NCBI RefSeq assembly: GCF_030269685.1
Contig: NZ_BSTT01000003.1
Span: forward strand, 62,001 to 126,000
Source: Actinomycetospora sp. NBRC 106378
GTDB lineage: Bacteria > Actinomycetota > Actinomycetes > Mycobacteriales > Pseudonocardiaceae
DNA length: 64,000 nt
Direction: 5' to 3'
Below are positions 22,639-47,026 of this stretch, in pieces. The stretch's first letter is position 1. Each line of letters starts with the position of its first letter. Under the pieces are notes generated by a model. The model did no database searches, was not told where the DNA came from, and worked only from the letters and a program-made list of their open reading frames with translations. A program made the position numbers and the translations under genes.

Positions 22639-22824
22639 GGGCCGCACCCTCACCGATCGACATGGACGGCCGGTGAACGGCAGGGGTGAATCGTCGCGGT
22701 CATCGCCGGCGGCTATCACCCGATCCCGGGGAACGTCTGTGCGTTGCTTTCGCAGAGTGCGACTCCGCATGCTCGTCGTCGAGATCGAACCGATCACCGC
22801 AATCGCATGAGGAGTGTTCGCAAC
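22639..22824. promoter_or_regulatory. Probable promoter region of the 22-kb lipid operon
   Basis: This 186-bp divergent gap contains TTGCTT, an 18-bp spacer and CATGCT (within 22744-22775), a weak sigma-70-like pair on the plus strand. GAGGAG just before 22825 is the ribosome binding site of the first gene. No clear operator dyad was found, and no regulator gene lies within the operon itself. Confidence 0.35.
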
Positions 22825-24045
22825 ATGTACGACGTCGTCGTGGTGGGCGCGCGGGTCGCGGGTTCCTCACTCGCCCTGCTGCTGGCCCGTCAGGGGCACA
22901 AGGTCCTCGTCGTCGACCGGGCGACGTTCCCGAGCGACACCATCTCGAGCCACTTCCTGCAGCAGACCGCGCTGACGCGGCTGCGCGACTGGGGCGTGCT
23001 GGAGGCGGCGGTCGGGGACTGCACCCCCTTCCGCAACCTGACCATGCACTACACCGGCATCGTGCTCGACGGGTTCGCCGACCCGGTGGACGGCTTCGCC
23101 GAGACCTACGCCCCACGGCGCACCGTCTTCGACGCCGCGCTCGTCGACGCCGCCCGCGAGTCGGGCGCCGAGGTGCGCGAGGGCGTCACCGTCGAGGACG
23201 TCATCTTCGACGAGGGCCGCGCGGTGGGCGTGCGGATCCGCGAGGGCGACGGCCCCGTGCACGACGTCCGCGCCCGCGTGGTCGTCGGCGCCGACGGCGC
23301 GAACTCGCTGGTCGCCGAGAAGGTCGGCGCCGAGAAGTACGACGTGCACCCCGCGGGCTGCTTCGTCGTCTACTCCTACTTCAGCGGCCTCGACTGGTCC
23401 GCTCACCACCGCACCGGCTTCGGCCGCGAGCAGATGGGCGCCTGGCCGACCAACCACGGCCTGCACATGGTGGCGACGATGGCCTCCCGCGACCAGATGC
23501 GCGCCTACCGCAGCGACATCGAGGGCAACGTCGACGGCACCATCGCCCGCTGCGCCCCCGAGTTGATCGAGGACCTGCGCGACTCCGGGGTCCGCGAGGA
23601 GCGGTGGCGCCAGATGGCCTACCCGGACAACTTCTACCGCCGCTCGCACGGGGCGGGCTGGGCGCTGGTCGGTGACGCCGGCTACCACAAGGACCCGTTC
23701 ACCGGGCAGGGGATGACCGACGCGATCAAGTACGCCGAGCTGCTCGCCGAGCACCTGGGCGCGGCCCTGGCGGGGGAGCGGGAGGTCGACGGCGCGCTCG
23801 CCGAGTACGCCCGCGAGCGCGACGAGCGCAGCCACCACACCTTCGAGTTCACGGTGGCGATCTCCGAGCTGACGCTGCCGCCGAACCTGGAGCCGGCCCT
23901 GCGCGCCACCGCGATGAGCCCGGAGTACACCCGCAAGTTCTTCGGGATGGTCGCGGGCGCCGTGTCCGGCGAGGACTTCTTCGCCCCGGACAACCTCGCC
24001 TGGCTCTACGAGACCACCGGCATGCCCTCGACCGTCGCCGCCTGA
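22825..24045 (+). CDS. FAD-dependent oxidoreductase (geranylgeranyl-reductase/PHBH-like)
   Basis: This 406-aa flavoprotein of the FAD_binding_3 or geranylgeranyl reductase type has the dinucleotide-binding N-terminus YDVVVVGARVAGSSLALLLA, RVVVGADGANS in the middle and the second FAD motif GDAGYHKDPFTGQGMTDAI. It could epoxidise, hydroxylate or reduce a lipid double bond. It is the first gene of the lipid operon, 28 bp before the SGNH hydrolase. ATG 22825 follows AGGAG at about 10 bp; the earlier in-frame starts are in the divergent promoter. Confidence 0.88.
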   Translation: MYDVVVVGARVAGSSLALLLARQGHKVLVVDRATFPSDTISSHFLQQTALTRLRDWGVLEAAVGDCTPFRNLTMHYTGIVLDGFADPVDGFAETYAPRRTVFDAALVDAARESGAEVREGVTVEDVIFDEGRAVGVRIREGDGPVHDVRARVVVGADGANSLVAEKVGAEKYDVHPAGCFVVYSYFSGLDWSAHHRTGFGREQMGAWPTNHGLHMVATMASRDQMRAYRSDIEGNVDGTIARCAPELIEDLRDSGVREERWRQMAYPDNFYRRSHGAGWALVGDAGYHKDPFTGQGMTDAIKYAELLAEHLGAALAGEREVDGALAEYARERDERSHHTFEFTVAISELTLPPNLEPALRATAMSPEYTRKFFGMVAGAVSGEDFFAPDNLAWLYETTGMPSTVAA

Positions 24046-24073
24046 CTAACCTCCGCCGACCGGGAGCGCCGCC

Positions 24074-24682
24074 GTGCCGACCATGCGACTGACCGTGCTG
24101 GGCGACAGCTTCGTCGAGGGCCGGGGCGACCCCGATCCCGACGGCGGGTTCCGCGCCTGGGCCCCGCTGCTGGCCGAGTCCCTGGGGGTGCGCCCCGACC
24201 GGTGGCGCAACCTCGGGGTCTACCGGGCCACCACCCAGGACGTGGTGGACCGTCAGCTGCCCCGCGCGGTCGCCGACCAGTCGCCGCTGGTCGGCGTGGT
24301 GGTCGGCACCAACGACGTGGTGTCCGACTACGAGCCGGCCCGCTTCCGCGCCAACCTCGACACGATCTTCGGCGCCCTCACCGGCGCCGGGACCGTCGTC
24401 TTCACCGCGGGCTATCCCGACATGCCCGCCCGCCTCCCGGTGCCCGAGCGGTACCGGACCCTCCTGCGCGACCGCTTCACCGAGGCCAACGCCGCCCTCG
24501 CGATGACCGCCCGCCGCCACGGCGTCGTCGTGCTCGACCTCGCCCGGTGCCCGCACTGGGCCGCCGACGACGTGTGGTCCGCCGACGGGCTGCACCCCAA
24601 CGCGGCCGGGCACCGGCGCTTCGCCGCGACCGTGCGCGACGCCCTGGCCGACGACGGCTGGGGCGTCCCCGCCGCGGCCTGA
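24074..24682 (+). CDS. SGNH/GDSL hydrolase
   Basis: This 202-aa SGNH-fold esterase has the block I motif LGDSFVEG (catalytic Ser), block III VGTNDVVSDY (Asn) and block V SADGLHPNAAGH (Asp and His). No signal peptide is present, so it acts in the cytoplasm. In the lipid operon it may cut an ester or transfer an acyl group. GTG 24074 has GGGAG 8 bp upstream; ATG 24083 is an alternative. Confidence 0.88.
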   Translation: MPTMRLTVLGDSFVEGRGDPDPDGGFRAWAPLLAESLGVRPDRWRNLGVYRATTQDVVDRQLPRAVADQSPLVGVVVGTNDVVSDYEPARFRANLDTIFGALTGAGTVVFTAGYPDMPARLPVPERYRTLLRDRFTEANAALAMTARRHGVVVLDLARCPHWAADDVWSADGLHPNAAGHRRFAATVRDALADDGWGVPAAA

Positions 24683-24738
24683 CCGCGCGTGCCGACCCGC
24701 CCCGCCGTCGGGAACCCCCCGCCTTCTCGAGGAGCCCC

Positions 24739-30700: not shown

Positions 30701-31536
30701 CGTCCCGCGACCTCGAGAGGCTGCGCGCCGAGCCCGTGCTCGCCGCCCACCGGATCGGCGACGAGCCGGTCCTGCCGGCCACGGTCGCGCTCGGCTGGAT
30801 GATCGATGCCACCGAGCGGCGCACCCCCGACCGCGTCGTCACCGGCGTCCGCGACCTCGCCGTCCGCAGCGGTCTGGTCTTCGGCGACGAGGCCGCCGGG
30901 TCGCTCACCGCGGAGATCGACGCTCCCCACGACGACGGGTCGGTGCCGGTCGCCGTCCGCGGCGACGGGTCCGCCCCGCGGTACTCGGCGACCCTGCGCC
31001 TCGGACCGGTCATGCCCGAGGCCGGCACGGTCCGTGACCTGCCCACCGGCCCCGGCGAGGACGGCACGGAGCTCTACCGCCGCGCGGTCCTCTTCCACGG
31101 CCCGGCCCTGCAGGGCGTGCGGCGGGTGCTCGAGCAGTCCGACGACCGCGTCGTCCTGGAGTGCGCCCTGCCGCCGACCCCGCTCGCCCGCGGCGCCTAC
31201 GCCGGGCGCCGGCACGACCCGGTGACCGCCGACGTCGTCCTGCACGGCCCGCTCGTCCTCGGCCACCGGCTGCTCGGGTCGGCGTGCCTGCCGCTCGCGA
31301 TCGGCCGGATCGACCTGGACGCGGTGATCCCGGCGGGGGAGACGTTCGTGCTCCTCGTCGAGAACCCGCGCGCCGGGACGAGCACCCTGCGCTGCGACGT
31401 CACCGTGTGCGCTGCCGACGGCACCGTCCTGCAGCGCTGGATCGACGTCGAGGTCGTCACCACCGCGGGTATGGACGAGCGCTTCGCCCGGGGGGTCGCC
31501 TCCTGGAACGGCGCGACGACGGCGGCCGCCCGGTGA
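24739..31536 (+). CDS. PfaA-like secondary-lipid/polyketide synthase, KS-AT-ACPx3-KR-DH
   Basis: This 2265-aa iterative megasynthase builds an acyl chain from malonyl units. The domains in order are as follows. KS (about 20-470) has Cys223 in VDAACAASLS, His358 in EAHATGTAVGD and His398 in IGHTKGAAG. AT (about 570-870) has Ser668 in GHSFGE. A low-complexity linker (about 930-1190) contains short repeats. Three near-identical ACPs have DSIK serines 1232, 1322 and 1412. KR has the NADPH loop TGGARGVT at 1711-1718, Ser1880 and Tyr1893. A C-terminal dehydratase-like double hotdog has HRIGDEPVLP with His2004. The order matches PfaA of PUFA synthases, which however usually end after KR or a DH. Five ORFs downstream complete the machinery. 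GTG 24739 follows GAGGAG. Confidence 0.93.
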   Translation: MSPAVPSPHRPGDLSARRLAETPIAVVGMGGLFPQAPTARDYWQNIVDGTDCTTEVPADRWRIEDHYDPDPSAPDKSYSRRGGFVPDVDFDPLEFGLPPNQLEVTSALQTLSLGVARDTLADAGATGSSWYDPSRTGCVLGVTGPVPLMHPLAARLSTPVLREVVRSCGLTEDDGRRIAETYAQAFAPWVENSFPGLLPNVTAGRVANRLGLGGMNSTVDAACAASLSAIRVAVAELVDGRADLMLTGGADTENSIFIYLCFAKVGALSHSDRIAPFDRSADGTLIGEGIGMLALKRLADAHRDGDRVYAVISGLGSSSDGRHKSIYAPRAEGQRLALERAYDDAQLSPAELGLVEAHATGTAVGDRTELTALGGLLSDHGATPRSVAIGSVKSQIGHTKGAAGTASLMKVAYALHQRVLPGTINVEAPNEALDADSALYANTRTRPWVSGRPRRGAVSAMGFGGTNFHVVLSEEPVVGPRPVLHRTARSSVFHAADLPSLRALLSSDALPDEGPVPDGHVRVGFAAAGEEDVAELRALAHAGLQGLADDVEEWTHPRGIWFRRAPLADRRVAAVFAGQGSQYLDMGLDAALNNPTVADALDLADSVVPGLGATIFPPPVFDAAERRAQEAALRATEHAQPAIGALAAGQFRSLAERGLDVSAAMGHSFGELTALWAAGSLTDADFVALARARGAAMAPGSSGDPGTMAAVSATRDQVEELIAGAGLDDVTVCNHNAPEQVVVGGGTEQVERFVAACAEQGIGAKALPVAAAFHTAHVAHAVGPFRAALAEVDVAEPRIPVVANTAGAAYGADVAANREVLVGQLSAPVEFVAGLEALRGTVGVVVEFGPKQVLTGLVRRVLGDDVIAIPTDAGPVGDSDLALEQAATRLAVLGVPLSAPVRGTVPSLPERRSGGMTVTLTGAEHVPAERAAAYAAALADERPLEAVASAAAAAATSREGNPRATRALDSSPHGVSAPAVPVAPVPPVSSEGSPRAGEPPVGAHGQNVPENPVSEPSADVLAQHTALHTRYLDGQLDLAQRLVDAWHADAGPETTERLRAVADHADAMSRAHVRANEVLASLAALEHGVAPGPVPSEGSPRAVEPPVGAPRQLAAAPPVPAPAPVPTEGSLRAVEPPVGAPRQIAAPAPVPTEGSPRAVEPPVGAPRQELAATNGHATNGHAPTTPSTPQPAGFDAAALRQVLVEVVADKTGYPASMVDPGLDLEADLGVDSIKRVQVLGAVQERYPDLPAIGPESMAELRTLDQIVQHFAAEAPATTQPVGGFDAAALRQVLVEVVADKTGYPASMVDPGLDLEADLGVDSIKRVQVLGAVQERYPDLPAIGPESMAELRTLDQIVQHFAAEAPATTQPVGGFDAAALRQVLVEVVADKTGYPASMVDPGLDLEADLGVDSIKRVQVLGAVQERYPDLPAIGPESMAELRTLDQIVQHFAADEPRAPKPAAPAVGKDEDTVERHAVELVDLPAREDGAAAFAADPVAVLVDRGGPEPDALDEALTAGGWTVRRVGLPETTGCDWPDPADDRTLDGLDDALTGQVDAVLLVLRDDEDLASSVSQLADAVLVAGAARDVLTRTAQAGTRAAFVTITRTDGGLGLLGHRIAADAVLAGVGGLVKTLAREAPVVFCRALDIAPVDSPDSAAEIVLAELTDAATDVVEVGVDADGHRRTVRVSDRPAPTIGDATPVGPEDVVVVTGGARGVTADCVRELARRVAPEIVLLGRTTLAEEPAWAVQVPDDGLTAAAARALATDGRPGPREVAAARDAVLAQREVRATLEAARTHGSAVHYRSVDVTDADQVRDALADVAHRATVLVHAAGALADATLPDKTPAAVHRVLAPKLVGLHHVAEALRDAPLHTVVLFGSVAGVHGNPGQADYALANEALARFGASADRHRAPRRVSTLSWGAWDGGMVTPDLREHFRARGVPLIDPDAGSRAFADHLTGGATGWVLLGAPDPLTGEQPRPVALPATTSRDLERLRAEPVLAAHRIGDEPVLPATVALGWMIDATERRTPDRVVTGVRDLAVRSGLVFGDEAAGSLTAEIDAPHDDGSVPVAVRGDGSAPRYSATLRLGPVMPEAGTVRDLPTGPGEDGTELYRRAVLFHGPALQGVRRVLEQSDDRVVLECALPPTPLARGAYAGRRHDPVTADVVLHGPLVLGHRLLGSACLPLAIGRIDLDAVIPAGETFVLLVENPRAGTSTLRCDVTVCAADGTVLQRWIDVEVVTTAGMDERFARGVASWNGATTAAAR
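27611..27657. repeat. Palindromic repeat, copy A1, inside the synthase linker
   Basis: GTGAGGGGA (27611-27619) and TCCCCTCAC (27649-27657) form an inverted repeat around a 29-bp centre. The centre closely resembles the one at 42788-42817. It lies in frame in the AT-ACP linker and codes for a low-complexity stretch. Confidence 0.65.
27701..28242. repeat. Four copies of a 50-58 bp repeat in the synthase linker
   Basis: The unit occurs at about 27701-27750, 28018-28073, 28111-28167 and 28185-28242. Each has the core GCGAAGGGTCCCCTCGCGC or a close variant, an imperfect palindrome, then a conserved GAGCCGCCCGTGGGCGCCC. All four are in the same reading frame and encode VPxEGSxRAxEPPVGAxxQ-type peptides between the AT and the first ACP. 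A 15-bp tandem duplication (28252-28281) follows. Confidence 0.75.
28318..29098 (+). repeat. Three tandem 270-bp ACP-coding repeats
   Basis: Units start at 28318, 28588 and 28858, exactly 270 bp (90 codons) apart. They are nearly identical in DNA, including silent sites, over most of their length, so recent duplication or gene conversion keeps them alike. Each encodes one ACP with LGVDSIKRVQVLG. Unit 3 differs most, near its 3' half. Confidence 0.95.
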
Positions 31537-33488: not shown

Positions 33489-35035
33489 GCACCGACGCCC
33501 TCCACGACCTCGACCGTCCCTGCTGGGCGGTCGCCGGCCCGCAAGGCCCGTTCCTGACGTCGAGCCCTCCCGCGGCCGGGCAGCGCGTGCTCGCCGCCGT
33601 CGGGCCGATCCGGGAGGAGTCGCTCGGCGCTGCGTCCTTCGGCCGGCACCACGGAGTGCGCCGCGCGGTCATGAGCGGCGCCATGGCCGGCGGCATCGCC
33701 TCCGCCGACCTGGTCGCGGCGATGGCGCGGGCGGGCTACCTCGGCTCGTTCGGCGCCGCCGGGCTCACCGCCGCCCGGATCGAGGACGCGCTGACGCAGC
33801 TCGACCGGGCCGGCGCCCCGTACGCCGTCAACCTCATCCACAGCCCCCACGAGCCGGCGCTGGAACGGACGATCGTCGACGCGTGCCTGCGCCACGGCGT
33901 GCGCACGGTGGAGGCGTCGGCGTTCCTCGACCTCACCGAGGAGGTCGTCCGGTACCGGGCGACCGGCCTGCGCCGGGCCTCCGACGGTGGCGTGACCACC
34001 GACCACCGGGTCATCGCCAAGGTCTCCCGCGCGGAGGTCGCCGAGGTGTTCCTGCGCCCCGCACCCGAGCCGGTGCTGCGCCGCCTCGTCGCGCGCGGCG
34101 CGATCACCGTCGATCAGGCCGACCTCGCCCGCCACGTCCCGATGGCCGACGACCTCACCGCCGAGGCCGACTCCGGTGGCCACACCGACCGCCGACCGCT
34201 CCCGGTCCTGCTGCCGGCCATGCTCGCGCTGGCCGAGCAGGTGGCCCGGGAGTCGGGGACGACGCCGGCCCGGGTCGGCGCCGCGGGCGGGATCGGCACG
34301 CCCGCGGCGATGGCCGCCGCGTTCGCCGCGGGCGCCGCCTACGTCGTCACCGGCTCGGTCAACCAGTCGTGCGTCGAGGCCGACCAGTGCGCCGCGACGA
34401 AGGAGCTGCTCGCCGCCGCCGGCGTGGCCGACACCGTCATGGCGCCCTCGGCGGACATGTTCGAGCTCGGCGTCGACGTCCAGGTGCTGGGCCGCGGCAC
34501 GATGTTCCCCGCCCGCGCCCGCCGCCTCTTCGAGCTCTACCGCAGCCGGGACTCCCTGGCCGACCTCACCGCCGCCGAGCGCACCGAGCTCGAGGAGCGC
34601 ATCCTGCGCCGCCCGGTCGAGGCGGTCTGGGACGACACCCGGCGGTTCTTCGCCGAGCGGGACCCGTCCCAGGTCGCCCGCGCCGAGACCGACGAGAAGC
34701 GGCGGATGGCCCTGGTGTTCCGCTGGTACCTCGGCCTGTCGTCGACGTGGTCGAGCCGCGGCGAGCCCGACCGGGTCCTCGACTACCAGATCTGGTGCGG
34801 CCCGGCGATGGGCGCGTTCAACGCCTGGGTCGCCGGCACCCACCTCGCCGCGCCCGCGCACCGGCGGGTCGCCGAGGTCACCGACGCCCTGCTGCACGGC
34901 GCCGCGATCGAGGCCCGCGCCACCGTGCTGCGCCTGGCCGGGCTCCGCCTGCCGCCCTCGGCGAGCACCTACCGCCCCGTGCCACCGACGACCGACGACC
35001 GCATCCCCGCTCTCGCCATCCGGGAGAACCGATGA
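33482..35035 (+). CDS. PfaD-family trans-acting enoyl reductase
   Basis: This 517-aa member of the PfaD family is an FMN-dependent, nitropropane-dioxygenase-like TIM barrel that reduces enoyl-ACP intermediates in PUFA and trans-AT polyketide systems. [17 protein letters not shown] lies near the N-terminus, and the FMN phosphate-binding [15 protein letters not shown] and [18 protein letters not shown] in the middle are diagnostic. The C-terminal helical extension ([21 protein letters not shown]) is also family-typical. ATG 33482 overlaps the dehydratase stop by 7 bp. Confidence 0.93.
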
Positions 35036-36744
35036 CCGCCGCCCGTACCGACGACACCGGCGACTGGCTGGTCTGTGCCGGCTGCCGGACCCTGCTCTAC
35101 GCCCGCCGCTTCCGCCGCCACCGCCAGGTCTGCCCGGACTGCGGTCACCACGCCCCGTTGACCGCCCCGGACCGCGTCGCCGACCTGTTCGACGAGGGCA
35201 CCGCCCGCACCTGGGAGCCGACCGCCACCGACGTCGACCCGCTCGGCTTCGTCGACAGCCGCCCCTACCCGCAGCGCGTCGTCGAGGCCCGCGCCCGCAC
35301 CGGCCTCGACGAGGGCGTGCTCTGCGTCCGCGGCACCATCGCGGGCCGGTCCGTCGTCGCCGCCGTCATGGACTTCCGCTTCCTCGGCGGCAGCCTCGGT
35401 GCCGCGGTGGGCGAGCGCATCACCGCCGCCGCCGAGGCCGCGCTGGCGCAGCGGGCCCCCCTGCTGCTGGTGTGCGCCTCCGGCGGTGCCCGCATGCAGG
35501 AGGGCGTCGTCGCCCTCATGCAGATGGCGAAGACCGTCGCGGCGCTGCAGGCCCTCGACGAGGCGGGGGTCCTGACGATCTCGCTGGTCACCGACCCCAC
35601 CTACGGCGGCGTCGCGGCCTCCTTCGCCACGCTCGCCGACGTGGTGATCGCCGAGCCCGGTGCCCGCCTGGGCTTCGCCGGCCGCCGCGTCATCGAGCAG
35701 ACCATCCGCGAGGAGCTGCCCGAGGGCTTCCAGACCGCGGAGTTCCTGCTCGCCCACGGCATGCTCGACCTCATCGTGCCCCGCCCCGAGCTGCGCACCA
35801 CGATCGGCCGGCTGCTCGGCGCCGCGTCCGGCGGCGGGCCCCGGCCGCTGCGCACCTCCCCGCTCGTCACCGATCCCACGGCCCTCCCCGAGCGCGACCC
35901 GTGGGAGGCGGTGCGCCTCGCCCGCCGCCTCGGGCGCCCGACGACGCTGGACTACCTCACCCACGTCGTCGAGGACTTCGTCGAGCTCCACGGCGACCGT
36001 CGCCACGGCGACGACCCGGCCATCGTCGCGGGGCTCGGCCGCCTCGACGGCCGGCCGGTCGCCGTCGTCGGGACCCAGAAGGGCCACGACGCGGCCGCCC
36101 TCGCCGCCCGCGGCTACGGCATGTCCGGCCCGGCCGGCTACCGCAAGGCCGCCCGGGTGATGACGCTGGCCGCGAAGCTCGGCCTGCCGGTGGTCACCCT
36201 CATCGACACCGCCGGCGCCTACCCGGGCGTCGCCGCCGAGGAGCAGGGCCAGGCGCTCGCGATCGCCGAGAACATCGGGCTCATGGCGTCGCTGCCGGTG
36301 CCGGTCGTCGCCGTCGTCACCGGGGAGGGCGGCAGCGGGGGAGCGCTCGCGCTCGCCGTCGCCGACCGCGTCCTCGCCTGCGCGAACGCCGTCTACTCGG
36401 TGATCAGCGCCGAGGGCTGCGCCTCCATCCTCTGGAAGGACGCCGCGCAGGCCCCGCGCGCCGCGGCCGCGCTGCAGGTCGACGCCCGCGCCCTGCTGCG
36501 GCTCGGGATCGTCGACGGCGTGCTGCCCGAGCCCGGCGACGGCGCCGACTCCGACCACCTCGTCGCCGCGCGCACCCTGCGCGACGCCGTCTCCGCCGCC
36601 CTGCAGGGCCTCGAGGGTCACGACGGCGGGTCGCTCGTCGCGTCCCGCCGGGCCCGGTTCCGCGCCTACGGCGCCGAGACCGCGCTCGGGGCCGTCGAGA
36701 CCGGATCCACCGCCGTGATCACCGACGTCCGGGAGTCCGCGTGA
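35032..36744 (+). CDS. accDA: Acetyl-CoA carboxylase carboxyltransferase, fused beta-alpha (AccDA)
   Basis: This 570-aa single chain joins both carboxyltransferase subunits. The AccD half (about 1-265) starts with a zinc ribbon [20 protein letters not shown] plus CPDC and holds [18 protein letters not shown]. The AccA half (about 290-570) has [15 protein letters not shown] and [19 protein letters not shown]. It transfers CO2 from carboxybiotin to acetyl-CoA to form malonyl-CoA. It is of the plastid/E. coli type rather than the PccB-like type usual in actinobacteria, which suggests a dedicated supply for the neighbouring synthase. ATG 35032 overlaps the PfaD stop. Confidence 0.94.
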
Positions 36745-37298
36745 GCACCCCGCCCCATGTCAGCGGTGGCACACGGCTGACGCCCGACGTCAGCAGCGCG
36801 CCACCGTCGCACGACGGTCCCGTCCCGTCGCCCGCCGACCTGGACGCCGTCCTCACCGTCCTGGTCCGGCACGTCCGCGACCTGGCCGGCCTCGGCACGG
36901 TCCGGATCGCCGCCGGCGCGGTGACCCTCGAGGTCGGGCCGGCCACGACGGCAGAAGTCGCACCGGCGCCCGTCGTCAGGAACCCGCCTCCGGTGCTCGC
37001 AGCGGTGCCGGACCCGGAGCCCCCTGTCGGCGTGCTCGATCGCTCTGTCGGGCCGGACGGACCGACCGTGTGCTCGACGACCGTGGGCGTGTTCTACCGG
37101 GCCGCCGAGCCCGGGGCCGCGCCCTTCGTCGCCGAGGGCGACACCGTCGCCGTCGGGCAGCAGATCGGGATCGTCGAGGCGATGAAGCTGATGATCCCCC
37201 TCGAGTCCGACCGCGCCGGGACGATCGCGGAGATCCTCGTCGGCGACGGCGACGCCGTGGAGCACGGCCAGCCGGTGCTGCGTCTGGCGTCCTCGTGA
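36741..37298 (+). CDS. accB: Biotin carboxyl carrier protein of acetyl-CoA carboxylase
   Basis: This 185-aa BCCP has a C-terminal biotinyl domain with the biotinylated Lys149 in [14 protein letters not shown] and the preceding thumb-like stretch [20 protein letters not shown], as in AccB. The N-terminal 70 residues include an inverted-repeat-encoded stretch and a [18 protein letters not shown] helix; the linker is proline rich. GTG 36741 overlaps the AccDA stop by 4 bp. No biotin ligase gene is in the window. Confidence 0.93.
36764..36806. repeat. 18-bp imperfect inverted repeat at the start of accB
   Basis: CGGTGGCACACGGCTGAC (36764-36781) and GTCAGCAGCGCGCCACCG (36789-36806) pair at 15 of 18 positions with a 7-bp loop. 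It begins 8 codons after the accB start and is translated. It could be another inserted palindromic element or an mRNA structure. Confidence 0.6.
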
Positions 37299-38644
37299 AG
37301 AAGGTGCTGGTCGCGAACCGCGGCGAGATCGCGGTCCGCGTGATCCGGGCGTGCCGAGACCTCGGGCTCGGCACCGTCGCGGTCCACTCGGCCGCCGACC
37401 GCGACTCACTCGCGGTGCGCCTGGCCGACGAGTCGGTGCAGGTCGGGCCGGCCGCAGCGCGGGCGAGCTACCTCAACATCCCGGCGCTCGTCGAGGCCGC
37501 CCGCATCCGGGGCGCGGACGCCGTGCACCCCGGGTACGGCTTCCTCTCCGAGAACCCCGACTTCGCCGAGGTGTGCACAGCCGAGGGCCTCACGTTCATC
37601 GGGCCACCCGCGCCGGTGATCGAGGCGCTGGGCGACAAGGCCCGCGCCCGGGCCACCGCGATCGAGGCGGGTCTGCCGCTGCTGCCCGGCTCCCGCGGCG
37701 AGCTGGCCGACGTCGACGCCGCGCAGTCCCTGGCCGACGAGATCGGCTACCCGGTCATCGTCAAGGCGGTCGCCGGTGGGGGTGGGCGCGGGATGGCGGT
37801 GGTGCGCCGGTCGGAGGACCTCGCGCGGGCGTGGGCCGAGACCCGTGCCGCCGCCGTCGCCGTGTTCCGCGACGGCCGATTGTTCCTCGAGCGCTACCTC
37901 GACTCCGCCCGGCACGTCGAGGTGCAGATCCTCGCCGACGCCCACGGGCATGCGGTGCACCTCGGGACCCGCGACTGCACCCTGCAGCGCCGCCACCAGA
38001 AGCTCGTCGAGGAGTGCCCGGCGCCCGCCCTGCCGCCGTCGTTCCTCGCCGAGATCGCCGACGCCGCGGTCCGGATGGTGCAGGCGTCGGGCTACGTGGG
38101 CGCGGGCACCGTGGAGTTCCTGGTCGACCCCTCCGGCCCGGCGTTCTTCTTCATGGAGGTCAACTGCCGGCTGCAGGTCGAGCACCCGGTCACCGAGATC
38201 GCGACCGGCATGGACCTCGTCGCCGAGCAGCTGCGGGTCGCCGCGGGGGAGCCGCTCGGGTTCACCCAGGCCGACCTCGTGGTCCGCGGCGCCGCCGTCG
38301 AGTGCCGCATCAACTGCGAGGACCCGGCCCGCGGCTTCGTGCCCACCCCCGGTGTCATCGAGCGCTGCGAACTGCCGGGCGGCGCGTTCGTGCGGGTCGA
38401 CACCCACGTGCACGCCGGCTACCGCGTGCCCGCCGCCTACGACTCCCTGCTCGCCAAGGTCGTCGTCTGGGCCCCCGACCGGGAGCGCGCCTTCGCCCGC
38501 ATGCGCGGCGCCCTCTCCGAGGTCCGCATCGAGGGTCCCGGCATCGCGACGACGGCGGGCTTCCTGCGTGACCTGCTCGACCACCCCCGCGTCGTCGCGG
38601 TGGAGCACGACACCGGCCTCATCGGCGAGGTCGTCGGCGCCTGA
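37295..38644 (+). CDS. accC: Biotin carboxylase of acetyl-CoA carboxylase
   Basis: This 449-aa ATP-grasp biotin carboxylase starts [34 protein letters not shown] is the ATP lid, EVQILADAHGHAVHLGTRDC and RRHQKLVEECPAPAL are conserved, and EVNCRLQVEHPVTE holds the catalytic Glu/Asn/Arg set. It is a stand-alone AccC, not the BC-BCCP fusion common in actinobacteria. GTG 37295 overlaps the accB stop by 4 bp. A 96-bp gap to the desaturase follows. Confidence 0.95.
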   Translation: MKKVLVANRGEIAVRVIRACRDLGLGTVAVHSAADRDSLAVRLADESVQVGPAAARASYLNIPALVEAARIRGADAVHPGYGFLSENPDFAEVCTAEGLTFIGPPAPVIEALGDKARARATAIEAGLPLLPGSRGELADVDAAQSLADEIGYPVIVKAVAGGGGRGMAVVRRSEDLARAWAETRAAAVAVFRDGRLFLERYLDSARHVEVQILADAHGHAVHLGTRDCTLQRRHQKLVEECPAPALPPSFLAEIADAAVRMVQASGYVGAGTVEFLVDPSGPAFFFMEVNCRLQVEHPVTEIATGMDLVAEQLRVAAGEPLGFTQADLVVRGAAVECRINCEDPARGFVPTPGVIERCELPGGAFVRVDTHVHAGYRVPAAYDSLLAKVVVWAPDRERAFARMRGALSEVRIEGPGIATTAGFLRDLLDHPRVVAVEHDTGLIGEVVGA

Positions 38645-38740
38645 CCTATCGCGCGAGTGCTCCTCCCTCTGCGCCGACCACCGACCCGTCCGGCGCACCA
38701 CGATCGGTTCCGACGCCCCAGCCCCTCCCCGGAGCTCCCC

Positions 38741-39682
38741 ATGGTCGACACGACCGCCGTCCCCCGTGAGCCTGCCCGCAGGACGATCAGCAACCCCTAC
38801 CTGCACCGCCTGCAGCGCCGGCACTTCCTCCTCTTCGACGTCGCCCCGATCGCCGGCACCGCCGCCGCGCTCGCCCTGATCCCCGTGCTGCCGTTCGGGG
38901 CCACCGAGATCGGGCTGCTGATCGGGATGTGGATCGTCACCGGCCTCGGGATCACCGTCGGCTACCACCGGCTGTTCACCCACCGCACGTTCACCGCCTC
39001 GCCCCTGACCCGCACCGCCCTCGCGATCGCCGGGTCGATGGCCGGGCAGGGCGGGGTCGTGTCGTGGGTCGCCATCCACCGCCGCCACCACGAGTGCAGC
39101 GACCGGGAGGGCGACCCGCACTCGCCGAACCTCTCCGGCGACGGGCTGCGCGGCGTGCTCCGCGGCCTCGTGCACTCGCACTTCCTGTGGATGCGCCGCC
39201 ACGAGTACCCCAACATCGCCCACTACGCGCCCGACCTGCTGCGCGACCGCCGCGTCGTCGCCGTCGGCCGGCGCTACTACACGTGGGTCCTCGTCGGCCT
39301 CGCCCTGCCCACCGTGATCGGCGGGCTGGTGCACCTGTCCTGGACGGGCGCGGTGTCCGGGCTGCTCTGGGGCGGCCTCGTCCGCATCTTCGTGCTCGAG
39401 CACATCATCTGGGCGATCAACAGCTTCCTGCACCGCTGGGGCACGAAGCCCTACGACTCCCGCGAGAACAGCCGCAACGGCGGGGTGTTCGCCCTGCTGA
39501 CCTTCGGCGAGTCCTGGCACAACAACCACCACGCGTTCCCGGAGTCGCCCACGTTCGGGCTCCAGTGGTACCGGCTCGACCCGGGCTTCTGGCTCATCCG
39601 CTCCCTCCAGGCGGTCGGCCTCGTCCGGGACCTGAAGACCCCCAGCGCCGACCGCATCGCCTCGAAGAAGGTCACCGCATGA
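38741..39682 (+). CDS. Acyl-CoA/acyl-lipid delta-9-type fatty acid desaturase
   Basis: This 313-aa membrane di-iron desaturase has the three His boxes HRLFTH (76-81), HRRHH (113-117) and HNNHH (in GESWHNNHHAFP). Hydrophobic segments at about 33-52, 57-73, 95-107 and a pair near 190-230 give four membrane spans. It places a cis double bond in an acyl chain. In the operon it may act on the synthase product or precursor before the methyltransferase. ATG 38741 follows GGAG; the in-frame upstream start would extend into the 96-bp gap. Confidence 0.95.
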   Translation: MVDTTAVPREPARRTISNPYLHRLQRRHFLLFDVAPIAGTAAALALIPVLPFGATEIGLLIGMWIVTGLGITVGYHRLFTHRTFTASPLTRTALAIAGSMAGQGGVVSWVAIHRRHHECSDREGDPHSPNLSGDGLRGVLRGLVHSHFLWMRRHEYPNIAHYAPDLLRDRRVVAVGRRYYTWVLVGLALPTVIGGLVHLSWTGAVSGLLWGGLVRIFVLEHIIWAINSFLHRWGTKPYDSRENSRNGGVFALLTFGESWHNNHHAFPESPTFGLQWYRLDPGFWLIRSLQAVGLVRDLKTPSADRIASKKVTA

Positions 39683-39936
39683 GCACCGGTCCGGACACCG
39701 CCGAGATCCTCACCTGGGCCCGCGGGTACCTCGCCGACCTCCTCGGCACCGACCCGACCGCCCTCGACCCGCACGCCGACTTCGACCAGCTCGGAGTCGA
39801 CTCCGCCCTCGCGGTCTCGCTGCTCATGGAGATCGAGGGCCGCTACGGGGTGGACGTCCCGCCCGAGTCGCTGTTCGAGAACCCGACACTGGCGGCGGTG
39901 GCCGCGATCGTGGCCGCCGAGCGGGCACCGGCGTGA
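39679..39936 (+). CDS. Acyl carrier protein (discrete, DSA motif)
   Basis: This 85-aa carrier protein has the phosphopantetheine site at Ser42 in LGVDSALAVSLLMEIE, so the usual DSL reads DSA. PESLFENPTLAAVAAIV is the helix III region typical of PKS-type ACPs. The 4-bp overlaps with the desaturase and methyltransferase genes suggest it carries the chain during modification or receives the acyl group from the FAAL at 42854. Confidence 0.93.
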   Translation: MSTGPDTAEILTWARGYLADLLGTDPTALDPHADFDQLGVDSALAVSLLMEIEGRYGVDVPPESLFENPTLAAVAAIVAAERAPA

Positions 39937-40787
39937 CCCTGTCCGCCGCGGCCGCCGTCCGGCACCACTACGACGTCGGCAACGACTTCTACCGCCTCTG
40001 GCTCGACCCCGGGCTCACCTACTCCTGCGCCCTGCCCGCGGGTCCCGACGACGGGCTCGCCGCAGCCCAGGCCCGCAAGGTCGCCCACCACCTCGACGCC
40101 GTCGGACCCTGTCGGCATCTGCTCGACGTCGGGTGCGGCTGGGGAGGAGTCCTCGACGCGGCCCTCGAGCGGGGCACGCGGACCGCGGTCGGGCTCACCC
40201 TCGCCGAGGAGCAGGCGGCGCACGTCCGGGCCACCGCCCGGCCCGGCGTCGAGGTCCGGGTGGAGAACTGGACCGACCACGAGCCCGACGCGCCCTACGA
40301 CGGCATCGTCTCCGTCGGCGCCCTCGAACACTTCGCCCGCCCCGAGGACGACGACGAGCGCCGCGTCGGGCGCTACCGCGACTTCCTCACCCGCTGCCGC
40401 GACTGGCTCGTCCCCGGCGGCGTGCTCTCCCTGCAGACCATCGCCTACGGCTCGATGGACCGCAGCGAGGCGAGCGCCTTCATCCAGCAGGACATCTTCC
40501 CCGCCGCCGACCTGCCGTCGCTCGTCGACCTCGCCCGCGCCGCCGACGGTCTGATGGAGGTGCGCACGCTGCGCGACGACCGCCCGCACTACGCCTGGAC
40601 CTGCGAACGCTGGCTGGCCAACCTCCGGGCGCACCGGGACGAGGCGGTCGCCCTGGTCGGCGAGGAGGTCACCGCACGCTACGAGCGCTACCTGCTGCAG
40701 TCCGCCCTGGGCTTCCGCATGGGGCGGATCGGGCTGCTGCGGATGGTCCTCGCGCCGCGGCAGCGGGCCTGGGGTGCGCTCCGGTGA
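39933..40787 (+). CDS. Cyclopropane/mycolic-acid-synthase-like SAM methyltransferase
   Basis: This 284-aa methyltransferase starts with the family signature VRHHYDVGNDFYRLWLDPG and YSCA, then SAM motif I LLDVGCGWGGVLDAAL. FIQQDIFPAADLPS is another CFA-family motif. The length fits mycobacterial CmaA-type enzymes (about 287 aa), shorter than E. coli Cfa. It would add a methylene or methyl group at a cis double bond, such as one made by the adjacent desaturase. The GTG start overlaps the ACP stop. Confidence 0.93.
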   Translation: MTLSAAAAVRHHYDVGNDFYRLWLDPGLTYSCALPAGPDDGLAAAQARKVAHHLDAVGPCRHLLDVGCGWGGVLDAALERGTRTAVGLTLAEEQAAHVRATARPGVEVRVENWTDHEPDAPYDGIVSVGALEHFARPEDDDERRVGRYRDFLTRCRDWLVPGGVLSLQTIAYGSMDRSEASAFIQQDIFPAADLPSLVDLARAADGLMEVRTLRDDRPHYAWTCERWLANLRAHRDEAVALVGEEVTARYERYLLQSALGFRMGRIGLLRMVLAPRQRAWGALR

Positions 40788-42022
40788 CCGCGTCGGGCGC
40801 CGTCCGGTTCAACCCGTTCGACCCGGCCTTCCGCGCCGATCCCTACCCGCAGTACCGGGCGCTGCGCGAGCACGCCCCGGTCCACCGGGCCTTCGGGATG
40901 TGGGTCCTGACCCGCCACGCCGACGTCACCGTGGTGCTCCGCGACCGCACGGCCTCGGTCGGGCTCGTCCCCGACCTCGTCGAGCGCCAGACCGCCCGAT
41001 CCGCGGCCCGGACGACCGTGGCGCCGGAGTCGCTCATGCGGATCTCCCGGCTCGCCCGTACCTCGCTGGTGTTCACCGACGACCCCGCCCACCAGCGCCT
41101 CCGGGCCCTGACCGGCCGGACGTTCGGGCCCCGCACCCTCGAGGCGCTCCGGCCCGGGATCGTCGCCGAGGCCCGCCGGCTCGCCACCGCGCTGCGGCTC
41201 GACGGCGGCGGCGACGCGGTCACCGACCTCGCGGCACCGCTGCCGCTCGCGGTGCTGGTCGACGCGCTCGGACTGCCGCCCGAGCGGCGCGGGGACGTGG
41301 CGGACTGGACCCACCGCATCCGGTTCCTGCTCGAGCCGGGGCTGCTCACCGCCGACGACCTGCCGGACGTCGCGGACGCCGTCGACGCGTTCGCCGCCAC
41401 CCTGCACGACGTCGCCGCCGCCCGTCGTCGCGATCCACGCGAGGACCTCCTCGGCAGCCTGGCCGCCGCCCGCACCCCCGACGGTGATCGGCTCGACGAC
41501 GAGGAGCTCGTCCTCGTCGCGATCATGACGTGCGTCGCCGGGCTCGAGACCACCGCCGCTCTGCTGGGCAACGGCCTGCACGCCCTGCTGGCCCACCCCG
41601 ACCAGGCCGCCCTCCTGCGCGCCGAGCCGCACCGCCTCCGGGACGCGGTCGCCGAGCTGCTCCGCTTCGACAGCCCGTTGCAGCTCACCCGACGTGCGAC
41701 GACGCGGGAGACCGTGCTCGGCGACGCCGTCGTCCCCGCCGGCGCGTCGGTGCTGCTCTGCCTCGGCGCCGCGAACCGGGACCCGGAGGTCTTCGTGGAC
41801 CCGGACGTCCTCGACGTCACCCGCACCGCGGGCGCCCACCTGGCCTACGGCCGCGGGCTGCACGGCTGCGTCGGCGCGTCGCTGGCGAGCCTCGTCGCCG
41901 AGGTCGCGCTCCGCGAGCTCCTGCTGCTCCCGGGGACCCTCCGGCCGGCCGGACCGGTGACCTGGCAGGAGCACAGCCAGATCGTCCGCGCCGTCGCGCA
42001 CCTGCCGGTGGTCCTGCGGTGA
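40784..42022 (+). CDS. Cytochrome P450 of the lipid operon
   Basis: This 412-aa P450 has I-helix VAGLETTAAL, K-helix ELLRFDSP, and heme loop AYGRGLHGCVGASLA with Cys362. The usual Phe seven residues before Cys is Tyr. It probably hydroxylates the ACP-bound or free acyl chain. The redox partner is not encoded next to it; the reductase at 50589 is one candidate. GTG 40784 overlaps the methyltransferase stop. Confidence 0.94.
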   Translation: MTASGAVRFNPFDPAFRADPYPQYRALREHAPVHRAFGMWVLTRHADVTVVLRDRTASVGLVPDLVERQTARSAARTTVAPESLMRISRLARTSLVFTDDPAHQRLRALTGRTFGPRTLEALRPGIVAEARRLATALRLDGGGDAVTDLAAPLPLAVLVDALGLPPERRGDVADWTHRIRFLLEPGLLTADDLPDVADAVDAFAATLHDVAAARRRDPREDLLGSLAAARTPDGDRLDDEELVLVAIMTCVAGLETTAALLGNGLHALLAHPDQAALLRAEPHRLRDAVAELLRFDSPLQLTRRATTRETVLGDAVVPAGASVLLCLGAANRDPEVFVDPDVLDVTRTAGAHLAYGRGLHGCVGASLASLVAEVALRELLLLPGTLRPAGPVTWQEHSQIVRAVAHLPVVLR

Positions 42023-42870
42023 GCCGTCGGTCCTGGCTGCGGCGTTCCGACGACGGGGATGCGCGGCTCACGCTGGTCTGTCTGCCGCACGCCGGCGCGG
42101 GCGCCTCGTCGTTCGCGCGGTGGCCGGCGCTGGTCGGGCCGGACGTGCGGGTCGTGCGGGCGCAGCTGCCCGGGCGGGAGGAGGTCGCCCACGAGGAGCC
42201 GGTCCGCCGGGTCGCCGACGCGGTCGCGGGCCTCGGCCCCGACGTCGCACGCCTGGCCGCCACCGGGCCGGTCGCCCTGTACGGGCACAGCATGGGAGCG
42301 CTCGTCGCCTACGAGCTCACGCGGGCGCTCGTCGCGCTCGACCTTCCGCCGGTGCACCTCGCGGTGTCCGGCCGCCGCGCCCCGCACCTGCCCCGGCGGT
42401 TCCCGCTGATGCACCTGCTGCCCGACGAGGAGTTCCTCGAGCGCCTCGACGCCATGGCGGTCACCCCCGAGGGACCGCCCCCGCCGGCCCGTTCGGCCGC
42501 CAACCGGCGCTACGCCCTGCGCGTGGCGCGCGCCGACCTGGAGCTGGGCGAGACCTACGCGCACCGGGGACCGCCGTTCGACGTGCCGGTCTCCGCCTTC
42601 GTGGGGGAGTACGACCCGGTCGTCGACCTCGCCGAGACGCTGGCGTGGAGCGAGGTCACCCGGGGCCCGTTCCGCGCCCGCCGCCTGCCCGGCGGACACC
42701 TGCTCGACCAGTCGGCCCGCGTCGCGCTGGTCGACGCCCTGCGGGCGGACTGGGCAGCCCTCGTCCCCACTCCCCGTGGTGCGAGGGGAACCCTCGCACC
42801 ACGAGAGCGCCCGAGTCCTCCCCTCACCCGACGACCCACCACGGAGACCGCCGATGCCCGGCCCGCGTGA
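42019..42870 (+). CDS. Type II thioesterase
   Basis: This 283-aa alpha/beta thioesterase has LVCLPHAGAGASSFARW at the N-terminus (TEII signature), the nucleophile elbow YGHSMGALVAYEL and the catalytic His in PGGHLLDQ. It may edit or release chains from the synthase or ACP. The last about 30 residues (from PRGARGTLAPRERP on) are encoded by a palindromic repeat and run past the normal end of the family. The stop overlaps the FAAL start by 17 bp. Confidence 0.93.
   Translation: MSRRSWLRRSDDGDARLTLVCLPHAGAGASSFARWPALVGPDVRVVRAQLPGREEVAHEEPVRRVADAVAGLGPDVARLAATGPVALYGHSMGALVAYELTRALVALDLPPVHLAVSGRRAPHLPRRFPLMHLLPDEEFLERLDAMAVTPEGPPPPARSAANRRYALRVARADLELGETYAHRGPPFDVPVSAFVGEYDPVVDLAETLAWSEVTRGPFRARRLPGGHLLDQSARVALVDALRADWAALVPTPRGARGTLAPRERPSPPLTRRPTTETADARPA
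42778..42829. repeat. Palindromic repeat, copy A2, at the 3' end of the thioesterase gene
   Basis: GGTGCGAGGG (42778-42787) and CCCTCGCACC (42791-42800) make a perfect 10-bp stem with a GAA loop. The rest, up to CCCCTCAC, matches copy A1 at 27611-27657 at most positions. It is translated as the thioesterase C-terminal tail and would form a strong mRNA hairpin 55 bp before the FAAL start. Confidence 0.7.
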
Positions 42871-44512
42871 GGTCCTCCGCCGTCGTGCCCGCGAGACCCC
42901 CGACCGGCGCGCCTACGTCTTCCTCGGCCCGGACGGCACGGAGGTCGAGGCCCTGACCTACGGCGAGCTGCACGCCCGGGCCCGCGCGACCGCGCTGCGG
43001 CTGGCCGCCCACGCGTCCCCGGGCGACCGCGCGCTGCTGCTCTTCGCGCCCGGGCTGGACTTCCTCGTTGCGTTCTTCGGGTGCCTGGAGGCGGGCGTCA
43101 TCGCGGTGCCCGTCGCCCCGCCGCGGCGCGGGCACGTGCAGGACGCGACCCGCAGCATCGTCGCCGACGCGGAGCCCGCCGTCGTCCTCGCCGACCCCAC
43201 GACGACGGCGGAGGCCCGCGACGCGCTCGCGCCGCACCTGCCGTGGCTGCTGGTGGAGGGCGTCGCGGAGGGCCGTCCCGACGAGGGGCCCGCCGACCCC
43301 GCGAGCCCGGCCTTCCTGCAGTACACGTCCGGCTCGACGTCGGCGCCCAAGGGCGTCGTCGTCACCCACGGCAACCTCGCGGCGAACGAGGACATGATCC
43401 GCCGCGCCTTCGGCCACGACGGGACGTCGACCTTCGTCGGCTGGGCGCCGCACTTCCACGACCAGGGCCTCATCGGCAACGTCCTGCAGCCGCTGCACCT
43501 GGGCACGCTCGCCGTCCTGATGGCGCCGTCGACCTTCATCCGGCGCCCGCTGGTCTGGCCGGAGACGGTGTCGCGCTTCCGCGCCCGCACCAGCGGCGGC
43601 CCGGACTTCGCCTTCGCCGCGTGCGTCGCCGCCGCGGCCCGCTCCGGCCTGCCTGCAGGGCTCGACCTCAGCTGTTGGACGGTCGCCTTCGACGGCGCCG
43701 AACCGCTGCGCCCCTCGACCCTGCGCGGCTTCGCGGCGACGTTCGGCCCGGCCGGGTTCGACCCCGGCGCGCTCTACCCCTGCTACGGCCTCGCGGAGGC
43801 GACGCTGCTCGTCACCGGGAGCCGTCCCGGCCGTGGACCGCGGTGGCTCGGCGTCGACCCCGAGGCCCTCACCCGCGGGCGCCTCGAACCCGGGACCCGG
43901 ACGATCGTCGGGTCGGGGCAGGTGCTGCCCGGCGAGGAGGTCCGGATCGTCGACCCCGACACCGAGCACGCCTGCGCCGACGGCGAGGTCGGCGAGATCC
44001 GCGTCGCCGGCGCGCACGTCGCGGCGGGGTACTGGCGGAACGCGGCGGCGACGGACGCGACCTTCGGCGGCGGCGAGCTGCGGACCGGCGACCTCGGCGC
44101 CCTGGTCGACGGCGAGCTCTACGTCGTGGGCCGGCGCAGCGACGTCATCGTCGTCCGCGGCCGCAACCACCACCCCGGCGACCTGGAGACGACCGCGCTC
44201 GGCGCCCACCCGGCCCTCGCCCCGTCCGGTCCGGCCACCGCCGTCGCGGTCGGGCTTCCCGACGACGAGGGCGGCGGGGAACGGGTCGCCGTGGTGCTGG
44301 AGGTGCGGGACCCCGACCTCGACGAGGCCCAGGTCGTCGGAGCCGTCCGGGCCGCGGTCCTGCGCGAGCACGACCTGGCCCTCGCCGCCGTCGTCCTCAC
44401 CCGTCCCGGCGCCCTGCCCCGCACGAGCAGCGGCAAGATCCGTCGTCGGGCCGCCCGCGACGTCCACCTCACCCACGGGTTCCCCGCCCTCGTCCCGGAG
44501 GAGGTCCGATGA
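42854..44512 (+). CDS. Fatty acyl-AMP ligase of the lipid operon
   Basis: This 552-aa FAAL starts MPGPREVLRRRARETPDRRAYVFLG. The P-loop is LQYTSGSTSAPKGVVV; WAPHFHDQGLIGN, SGGPDFAFAACV and YPCYGLAEATLLV are FAAL signatures; PRTSSGKIRRR has the catalytic Lys. It probably loads a starter or exogenous fatty acid onto the discrete ACP or a synthase ACP. ATG 42854 lies within the end of the thioesterase gene; GGAG sits just upstream. Confidence 0.94.
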   Translation: MPGPREVLRRRARETPDRRAYVFLGPDGTEVEALTYGELHARARATALRLAAHASPGDRALLLFAPGLDFLVAFFGCLEAGVIAVPVAPPRRGHVQDATRSIVADAEPAVVLADPTTTAEARDALAPHLPWLLVEGVAEGRPDEGPADPASPAFLQYTSGSTSAPKGVVVTHGNLAANEDMIRRAFGHDGTSTFVGWAPHFHDQGLIGNVLQPLHLGTLAVLMAPSTFIRRPLVWPETVSRFRARTSGGPDFAFAACVAAAARSGLPAGLDLSCWTVAFDGAEPLRPSTLRGFAATFGPAGFDPGALYPCYGLAEATLLVTGSRPGRGPRWLGVDPEALTRGRLEPGTRTIVGSGQVLPGEEVRIVDPDTEHACADGEVGEIRVAGAHVAAGYWRNAAATDATFGGGELRTGDLGALVDGELYVVGRRSDVIVVRGRNHHPGDLETTALGAHPALAPSGPATAVAVGLPDDEGGGERVAVVLEVRDPDLDEAQVVGAVRAAVLREHDLALAAVVLTRPGALPRTSSGKIRRRAARDVHLTHGFPALVPEEVR

Positions 44513-44931
44513 CCGCCCCGAACCCCGACTACGACGCGTTCATCCGCCGTGTCATCGCGACGATGCCGGCGCTGCGGTCCTTGGGGATCGAGGTCGTCGA
44601 CCTCGCGCCGGGTCACGCCGAGGTCCGGCTGCCGGAGCGTGCCGAGCTCGCCCAGCACGACGGCTACGTGCAGGGCGGCCTGATCGGCACCCTCGCGGAC
44701 GTGGCCGGTGGCTGCGCGACGGCCACCCTGCTCCCCGCGGGCTGGGTCGGGATGACCGCCGACTACACCGTCAAACTCGTCGCCCCGGCCCGCGGGACCC
44801 TCACCGCGCGAGGGCGCGTCGTGTCCGCCCGGCGCACGACGAGCGTGGCCGCCGCCGACGTCCTCGACGCCGACGGCACGGTGTGCGCGACGGCCCTGGT
44901 CACCATGCGCAACGTCGACACGGGCCGCTGA
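44509..44931 (+). CDS. PaaI-type hotdog thioesterase
   Basis: This 140-aa single hotdog domain contains HDGYVQGGLIGTLADVAGGCA, the PaaI helix with GG at the turn, then GMTADYTVKLVAPARG. It is the last gene of the lipid operon, translationally coupled to the FAAL (ATG in the stop overlap). It probably clears acyl-CoA or aberrant acyl-thioesters. It converges with the P450 at 44959; the 27-bp gap has no strong hairpin. Confidence 0.9.
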   Translation: MTAPNPDYDAFIRRVIATMPALRSLGIEVVDLAPGHAEVRLPERAELAQHDGYVQGGLIGTLADVAGGCATATLLPAGWVGMTADYTVKLVAPARGTLTARGRVVSARRTTSVAAADVLDADGTVCATALVTMRNVDTGR

Positions 44932-47015: not shown

Positions 47016-47026
47016 GAGGCTCGCCC

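Follow-up and report, generated by a model that had tools for sequence, protein, structure and literature searches.

The 64,000-nucleotide stretch analysed here (the window, to which positions refer) comes from Actinomycetospora sp. NBRC 106378 (contig NZ_BSTT01000003.1), and between positions 22825 and 44931 it carries fifteen plus-strand genes for a Pfa-like secondary-lipid synthase, an acetyl-CoA carboxylase and a set of acyl-modifying enzymes (Table 1). We find that this cluster consists of two units: a Pfa core of flavoenzyme, GDSL enzyme, PfaA, dehydratase and PfaD, often accompanied by AccDA, AccB and AccC, and a separable acyl-ACP (acyl carrier protein) cassette of desaturase, ACP, methyltransferase, P450, thioesterase (TE), fatty acyl-AMP ligase (FAAL) and DUF4442 protein. 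An earlier, sequence-only reading of the window had described fifteen same-strand genes joined mostly by 4-bp overlaps, and their frames are indeed open at or very near the positions it gave; the enzymes it listed, including the linked AccDA/AccB/AccC and the additional FAAL, desaturase, methyltransferase and P450, are all recovered as Pfam and NCBIfam domain matches. Overlaps of 4 bp account for 10 of the 14 junctions, the others being gaps of 28 bp (flavoenzyme/GDSL), 56 bp (GDSL/PfaA) and 12 bp (AccC/desaturase, from the furthest upstream start) and an overlap of 17 bp (TE/FAAL, from start 42854).

The synthase core and its relatives

Against the NCBIfam models for PfaA (TIGR02813) and PfaD (TIGR02814), the products of the 24739 and 33485 genes score 1550 bits (cut-off 1010.1) and 603.3 bits (cut-off 449.25), respectively. 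PfaA carries the active-site strings DAAC, GHSFGE and, three times, LGVDSIK, and the string of its acyltransferase (AT), AAFHTAH, suggests malonyl specificity under the motif rule that relates such strings to substrate. The dehydratase conserves Glu372 and His541 as in classic PfaC relatives (33-row alignment), and a hotdog structural model fits a tandem FabA-like dehydratase with its catalytic residues. All the features by which secondary-lipid (Pfa-like) synthases are recognised are present, namely a PfaA of KS-MAT-ACP(n)-KR type with tandem ACPs, a PfaD and a tandem FabA-like DH/I. A Pfam scan detected neither a ketosynthase with chain-length factor (KS-CLF) nor a second AT encoded in the cluster, where the dehydratase gene directly follows PfaA; PfaB and a linked PfaE phosphopantetheinyl transferase are likewise absent from the cluster, the sole AT lying inside PfaA. 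Model scores and domain scan together uphold the earlier description of a Pfa-like synthase without PfaB or KS-CLF. By eye, the three ACP repeats of PfaA (24739-31536) seem letter-for-letter identical, and the linkers hold repeated EGSPRAVEPPVGAPRQ-like units.

Elsewhere in the draft genome, the phosphopantetheinyl transferase family PF01648 has a single match, on another contig, and PF00109 has 31. A Pfa-type KS or KS-CLF outside the cluster was rejected for the matches compared on contigs C5 (eight), C15 and C2: the eight C5 KS are 33-34% identical to the window KS, those of C15 and C2 28-35%, and the best C15 KS shares 57% identity with a C5 KS of modular type; other C5 matches and weak matches on C16, C24, C13, C1 and C8 were set aside. 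Contig C5 also holds, at approximately 34-132 kb, giant modular polyketide synthase (PKS) genes with open frames of up to 10886 aa, which we take to be reminiscent of polyene macrolide synthases.

In polyunsaturated fatty acid (PUFA) synthases, PKS-like DH domains give 2-trans and tandem FabA-like DHs 3-cis double bonds (PMC9667614, available passages), and by analogy the likeliest product of the core would be a chain that is saturated in part and has cis double bonds. The top fold neighbours of the flavoenzyme (VIA-align fold comparison) are halogenases and PHBH-like monooxygenases. A halogenase identity was considered and rejected, since WxWxIP, the motif of flavin-dependent halogenases, is absent from a 16-row alignment; consequently, oxidation appears likelier than halogenation. 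A second AMP-binding ligase (FadD11-like in locus L159, 16052-17932) precedes the flavoenzyme in loci L159, L178, L173 and L086, and was not seen beside the flavoenzyme of the window. In L178 (A. chiangmaiensis) the flavoenzyme is grouped with a ligase and a hydrolase, away from the PfaA operon.

KS phylogeny, which the sequence-only reading had named as the analysis that might overturn it, places the window KS in a clade of its own lineage and does not overturn it. In the careful tree (61 rows) all 34 core rows group together with support of 100/100, separate from the KS-CLF-bearing Streptomyces Pfa synthases (KS 63-65% identical to that of the window), a PfaD-first group, Persicobacter, the KS of PfaC and modular KS, as well as from the Beijerinckia Type P strain, which is the sole typed reference in trees that hold no HglE, PksE, or Shewanella or canonical EPA/DHA (eicosapentaenoic/docosahexaenoic acid) PfaA. 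A quick tree (72 rows) concurs, uniting 36 core rows (the window, 34 of 80 named loci and a Rhodococcus opacus plasmid locus) with support of 100. From 118 gathered rows, the 72-row tree drops mainly CLF rows, with further PfaC and modular KS, and the 61-row tree additionally omits one modular and three PfaC-KS rows as well as seven rows that are duplicates or sit on long branches. Carriers belong to Actinomycetospora, Amycolatopsis, Actinokineospora, Nocardia, Rhodococcus, Williamsia, Tsukamurella, Pseudonocardia, Saccharopolyspora, Saccharothrix, Thermocatellispora and Parafrankia, and Frankia fragments bear matching dehydratase, PfaD and AccDA; within the genus of the window, 2 of 16 genomes have a PfaD match. 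We conclude that this is a distinct actinobacterial lineage of Pfa synthases without KS-CLF, in which the class is known and the lineage and two-unit layout are new.

Secondary-lipid synthases have been sorted into Types A-T by Shulse and Allen 2011 (PMC3098273, here and below in its available passages), with Type M members listed without a product from Frankia, Actinosynnema, Renibacterium and S. avermitilis. The window shares with Types A-T a PfaA with tandem ACPs and KR, tandem DH/I and PfaD, but lacks KS-CLF and PfaB and adds the flavoenzyme and GDSL enzyme in front, AccDA/B/C and the FAAL cassette. A possible link to Type M comes from Parafrankia and Frankia (the Parafrankia soli KS lies inside the core clade, in a tree that holds no sequence named Type M), and identity with that type is not established. 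EPA/DHA synthases (Types A and B) resemble the window in PfaA architecture, PfaD and FabA-like dehydratases, yet they possess KS-CLF and PfaB (PMC3098273), and the window has neither of these nor a linked PfaE. The heterocyst glycolipid synthase (Type F, Hgl) likewise builds a long alkyl chain by iterative Pfa-like synthesis, but has HglC (KS-CLF-AT) and no DH/I domains (PMC3098273), the reverse of the window, where DH/I is present and KS-CLF is absent from the cluster. One Streptomyces synthase of KS-CLF type (Streptomyces sp. NBC_00503 plasmid) adjoins genes for salicylate synthase, isochorismatase and amidohydrolase, and may have a hybrid product. No characterised relative with this gene set was found in the literature within reach of our search, which excludes most subscription journals; PMC13291983 concerns hybrids of PKS and nonribosomal peptide synthetase, and its main text lacks the words FAAL and desaturase, while the available passages of PMC5550956, PMC7413640 and PMC10134820 do not describe this cluster type.

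A separable acyl-ACP cassette

The core occurs both with and without the cassette, whose gene order is uniform wherever readable (12 other loci, Williamsia counted once); the cassette of Saccharopolyspora indica lacks TE, no DUF4442 gene was found at two loci, and the Tsukamurella stretch stops within the methyltransferase. Relative to PfaA, the cassette lies on the same strand in 7 of 13 loci and on the opposite strand in 6 (window included). Moreover, genome G212 carries desaturase, ACP, methyltransferase, P450 and FAAL in this order and, behind them, a single UgpE-like gene and a P450; the 35 kb read there contain no match to PfaA, and a search of the whole genome for PfaD at E 1e-40 found none.

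We surveyed 249 genomes of the family, our own included, in one fixed draw. A PfaD match exists in 67 of these, and 32 neighbourhoods were read (own window included), those left unread having PfaD at no more than 56% identity, plus G061 (57%, on a 4-kb contig); 13 genomes were classed as core from the 20-kb stretches read. The desaturase is found at no less than 68% identity (bar E 1e-110) in 8 of the 249 genomes and the methyltransferase at 58% or more in those same 8 (49-50% in two others), placing the cassette in 7/13 core genomes vs 1/236 others (Fisher 1.2e-9, a value that disregards kinship). Flavoenzyme homologues of at least 49% identity occur in 11/13 core genomes vs 2/236 others, in which they stand beside a different PKS. 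The co-occurrence check proposed by the sequence-only reading thus gives a strong result for PfaD, desaturase, methyltransferase and flavoenzyme. As a side observation, homologues of the flavoenzyme (48-51% identity) precede a different large PKS in L171 (G244) and L172 (G237), that of L171 starting with formyltransferase and AMP-binding domains.

Thirty core genomes, picked because their fetched flank showed no cassette, were searched whole: the desaturase is present at 68% identity or above in 16, and the next value below that is 45%. Among the 30, six (L080, L095, L097, L100, L130, L131) are fragments that yielded no usable KS row (L100 was recognised from PfaD and acetyl-CoA carboxylase genes only), and five (L081, L095, L098, L126, L147) were judged also in the family survey.

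Across 9-13 loci, distances of the cassette genes track those of PfaD (rho 0.65-0.89) and KS (0.45-0.72), these pairings covering 12-13 loci. The flavoenzyme and GDSL enzyme track KS (rho 0.79 and 0.73) and each other (0.78), PfaD weakly (0.39 and 0.33) and the cassette hardly (-0.04 to 0.34). These distances carry no housekeeping control, and common descent may therefore account for some of the correlation; however, the contrast between genes within one locus argues that the co-divergence is not organism phylogeny alone.

The cassette methyltransferase has the Cys (YSCA), Glu (EHF) and Tyr of the mycolate and cyclopropane fatty acid synthases. At the position of their LLHTI string, however, it reads SLQTIAY, with Gln in 16/16 cassette rows (13 species, three pairs being overlapping stretches or strains of one species), whereas the five solved synthases compared (CmaA1, MmaA2, CmaA2, 1l1e and 5z9o; UmaA, MmaA1 and MmaA4 lie outside the alignment) have His. 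In CMAS enzymes this active-site His is a bicarbonate ligand. Given this replacement, cyclopropanation by the cassette enzyme is doubtful; of the methylated or cyclopropanated product proposed earlier, the methyltransferase assignment to the CMAS family stands and cyclopropanation is weakened. Three more CMAS-like proteins (29-30% identity) at some loci lack SLQTIAY and were excluded from the cassette count.

The FAAL aligns end to end with solved FAALs (PDB), and the linked FAAL, desaturase and ACP constitute the trio of JamABC cassettes (PMC8406139 and PMC11837247, available passages). Polyyne clusters add a TE, and ten actinobacterial genomes have a P450 in place of TE and rubredoxin (PMC11837247, likewise). 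By gene content, the window shares with such clusters the grouping of FAAL, membrane desaturase and stand-alone ACP, but differs in its single desaturase, its CMAS-family methyltransferase and its linkage to Pfa genes. By this resemblance, the cassette probably modifies a separately loaded fatty acid.

Surroundings of the cluster

The earlier reading does not mention the recurring genes found upstream of the cluster (16982-22797) or the minus-strand operon that converges on it (44961-50552). In other genera, 4HBT, LysR, metallo-beta-lactamase-fold, alpha/beta hydrolase and DUF4442 genes are again found next to the core; the convergent operon has 4-bp overlaps, with a ferredoxin reductase gene just upstream.

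Importer subunits of at least 55% identity lie inside the fetched stretches of 20/33 named core loci (L103 is outside this set, L146, with importer identities of 36-45%, is uncounted, and A. chiangmaiensis enters via L040). The importer binding protein is found at 60% identity or more in 11/13 core genomes and also in 13/236 others. Among the 12 of these 13 that were read, G234 has dehydratase and PfaA matches beside the importer and, recounted as core, gives 12/14 core genomes vs 12/235 others; in the other 11 the importer stands without core genes, LysR adjoins it in 10, and no conserved neighbour besides LysR was found. A role as a dedicated part of the pathway was consequently set aside, and the importer may mark a shared site or be a functional partner. 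In G212, the lone UgpE-like permease lies directly after the cassette FAAL (21087-21797 of the joined stretch L169/L170).

Table 1 Genes of the two units and of their surroundings, with window positions
Feature	Position	Strand	Evidence
4HBT hotdog protein, near core in three other genomes (L039, L173, L175)	16982..17506	+	Pfam
LysR regulator, recurs with importer	17576..18565	+	Pfam
Metallo-beta-lactamase-fold hydrolase, recurring neighbour	18599..19513	+	Pfam
Alpha/beta hydrolase, recurring neighbour	19608..20459	+	Pfam
DUF4442 hotdog protein, recurring neighbour	22117..22797	-	Pfam 5.6e-11
Flavoenzyme, FAD_binding_3 (fold: PHBH-like monooxygenases and halogenases), core	22825..24045	+	Fold comparison
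GDSL-like esterase/acyl hydrolase, core	24074..24682	+	Pfam 1.9e-28
PfaA-type iterative synthase, KS-AT-ACPx3-KR-DH, 2265 aa	24739..31536	+	Pfam; TIGR02813; active-site motifs; KS tree
Tandem FabA-like dehydratase, C-terminal part of PfaC only, without KS-CLF	31533..33488	+	Alignment; hotdog model
PfaD-type enoyl reductase	33485..35035	+	TIGR02814; PDB PfaD 6lkc, E 4.8e-152
AccDA fusion, acetyl-CoA carboxylase carboxyltransferase	35032..36744	+	ACCA 1.3e-101; Carboxyl_trans; Zn ribbon; accD TIGR00515 329.1 bits (cut-off 317.45)
AccB biotin carboxyl carrier protein (BCCP), EAMKLM motif	36741..37298	+	Biotin_lipoyl 1.4e-16; BCCP model under its cut-off
AccC biotin carboxylase	37295..38644	+	Pfam; PRK08591 614.7 bits (cut-off 597)
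Membrane fatty-acid desaturase, three His boxes, opens second unit	38657..39682	+	FA_desaturase 2.4e-26; homologue identities bimodal
Stand-alone ACP, GVDS site	39679..39936	+	PP-binding 2.1e-17
CMAS-family S-adenosylmethionine methyltransferase, Gln for usual His	39933..40787	+	CMAS 2.9e-59; SLQTIAY string
Cytochrome P450, heme Cys string GLHGCVG	40784..42022	+	p450 5.6e-21
Type II thioesterase, GHSMG motif	42019..42870	+	Thioesterase 7.2e-30
Fatty acyl-AMP ligase (FAAL)	42854..44512	+	AMP-binding 1e-62; PDB 7r7e 5.8e-125, 3kxw, FadD23/28/32; NCBIfam FAAL models under curated cut-offs
DUF4442/4HBT hotdog thioesterase	44509..44931	+	Pfam; TIGR00369 64.7 bits (cut-off 36.6)
Second cytochrome P450, last gene of convergent operon	44961..46209	-	Frame, heme motif; NCBIfam P450 models under cut-offs
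UgpE-like permease	46206..47030	-	BPD_transp_1; NCBIfam under cut-off
UgpA-like permease	47027..47977	-	NCBIfam under cut-off
UgpB-like substrate-binding protein	47974..49365	-	Pfam SBP; NCBIfam under cut-off
UgpC/MalK-like ATPase	49362..50552	-	UgpC 424.7 bits (cut-off 432)
Ferredoxin reductase, C-terminal 2Fe-2S domain, possible electron donor, recurring	50589..51575	-	Fer2 4.2e-13

Proposed pathway and alternatives

The earlier observation of the locus is confirmed and its interpretation is partly supported. We favour, with some confidence, a secondary-lipid cluster in which a distinct actinobacterial Pfa lineage is joined to a separable acyl-ACP cassette, for which we infer activities, step order, priming and product as follows. 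AccDA/B/C would supply malonyl-CoA, from which PfaA, the tandem FabA-like dehydratase and PfaD, with neither PfaB nor KS-CLF, would iteratively make an acyl chain that is partly unsaturated. Independently of the Pfa chain, the FAAL would place a free fatty acid on the small ACP, where desaturase, methyltransferase and P450 would alter the bound acyl group, as in JamABC-type cassettes, and the TE and hotdog proteins may act in editing or release. Most likely, the acyl group from the cassette either serves as primer for the Pfa synthase or is attached to its product, and the GDSL enzyme and flavoenzyme would finish the chain. A more specific version, which we offer only tentatively, is a two-chain or starter-primed lipid, in which a Pfa synthase that has lost its chain-length factor would be primed by an acyl group that undergoes desaturation on a dedicated ACP and, through the altered-site methyltransferase, C-methylation rather than cyclopropanation.

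Several observations weigh against the two-unit model. Six of the 13 core genomes have no homologue of the cassette desaturase that reaches the set bar, and the window and six other loci are co-directional, which is compatible with a single pathway. The core itself is inconstant: G240, G143 and the Saccharothrix locus L126 (judged the same genome as G143) have PfaA, GDSL and PfaD, but the stretches read there gave no dehydratase, flavoenzyme or AccDA match, and in A. chiangmaiensis (L178) the flavoenzyme lies approximately 41 kb from the GDSL and PfaA operon, so that the core can be split. The disregard of kinship and the missing housekeeping control mentioned above count on the same side, as does the lack of any member with a characterised product or activity.

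A potential alternative is one linear pathway, as the sequence-only reading had assumed, in which desaturase, methyltransferase and P450 decorate the chain made by the Pfa synthase and the FAAL re-activates the released acid. The single-direction overlapping operon of the window, the shared strand in 7/13 loci and the parallel divergence of cassette genes, KS and PfaD are all in keeping with it; however, the opposite orientation of the cassette in 6/13 loci, the 6/13 family core genomes without the cassette desaturase and the G212 cassette without a PfaD match leave unsupported, as stated, the view that the Pfa chain is the substrate of every tailoring enzyme, and we consider this pathway possible but rather unlikely. 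We hold it to be improbable that two unrelated pathways are merely co-located at a hot spot between the LysR gene and the Ugp-like importer. Although LysR and UgpCBAE are found as a unit of their own in genomes that lack the core, the lipid genes of the window sit between LysR and UgpE, and cassette orientation is variable, such co-location fits poorly with a cassette found in 7/13 core genomes vs 1/236 others, a linkage seen across Pseudonocardiaceae, Nocardiaceae and Tsukamurellaceae, and co-divergence with PfaD of up to rho 0.89.

Desaturases and CMAS enzymes elsewhere act on membrane lipids, and the PfaA and PfaD family scores and the conserved dehydratase residues would also suit a membrane PUFA synthase, whose core would make an EPA-like phospholipid acid while the cassette supplied a branched or cyclopropane acid to the same membranes. 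This too seems improbable: KS-CLF and PfaB, both present in EPA/DHA systems (PMC3098273), are missing, the distribution within the genus is patchy (the 2/16 genomes noted above), and the cassette is carrier-bound and includes a FAAL.

The two-unit model accordingly remains the reading that we prefer. Few secondary-lipid synthases have known products, and here a lineage without KS-CLF, with a two-unit architecture, is present in Rhodococcus, Nocardia, Amycolatopsis, Pseudonocardia and Actinomycetospora, so that single deletions could test both what is produced and what the chain-length factor contributes. In addition, the family of methyltransferases with Gln in place of His is a concrete and assayable oddity.

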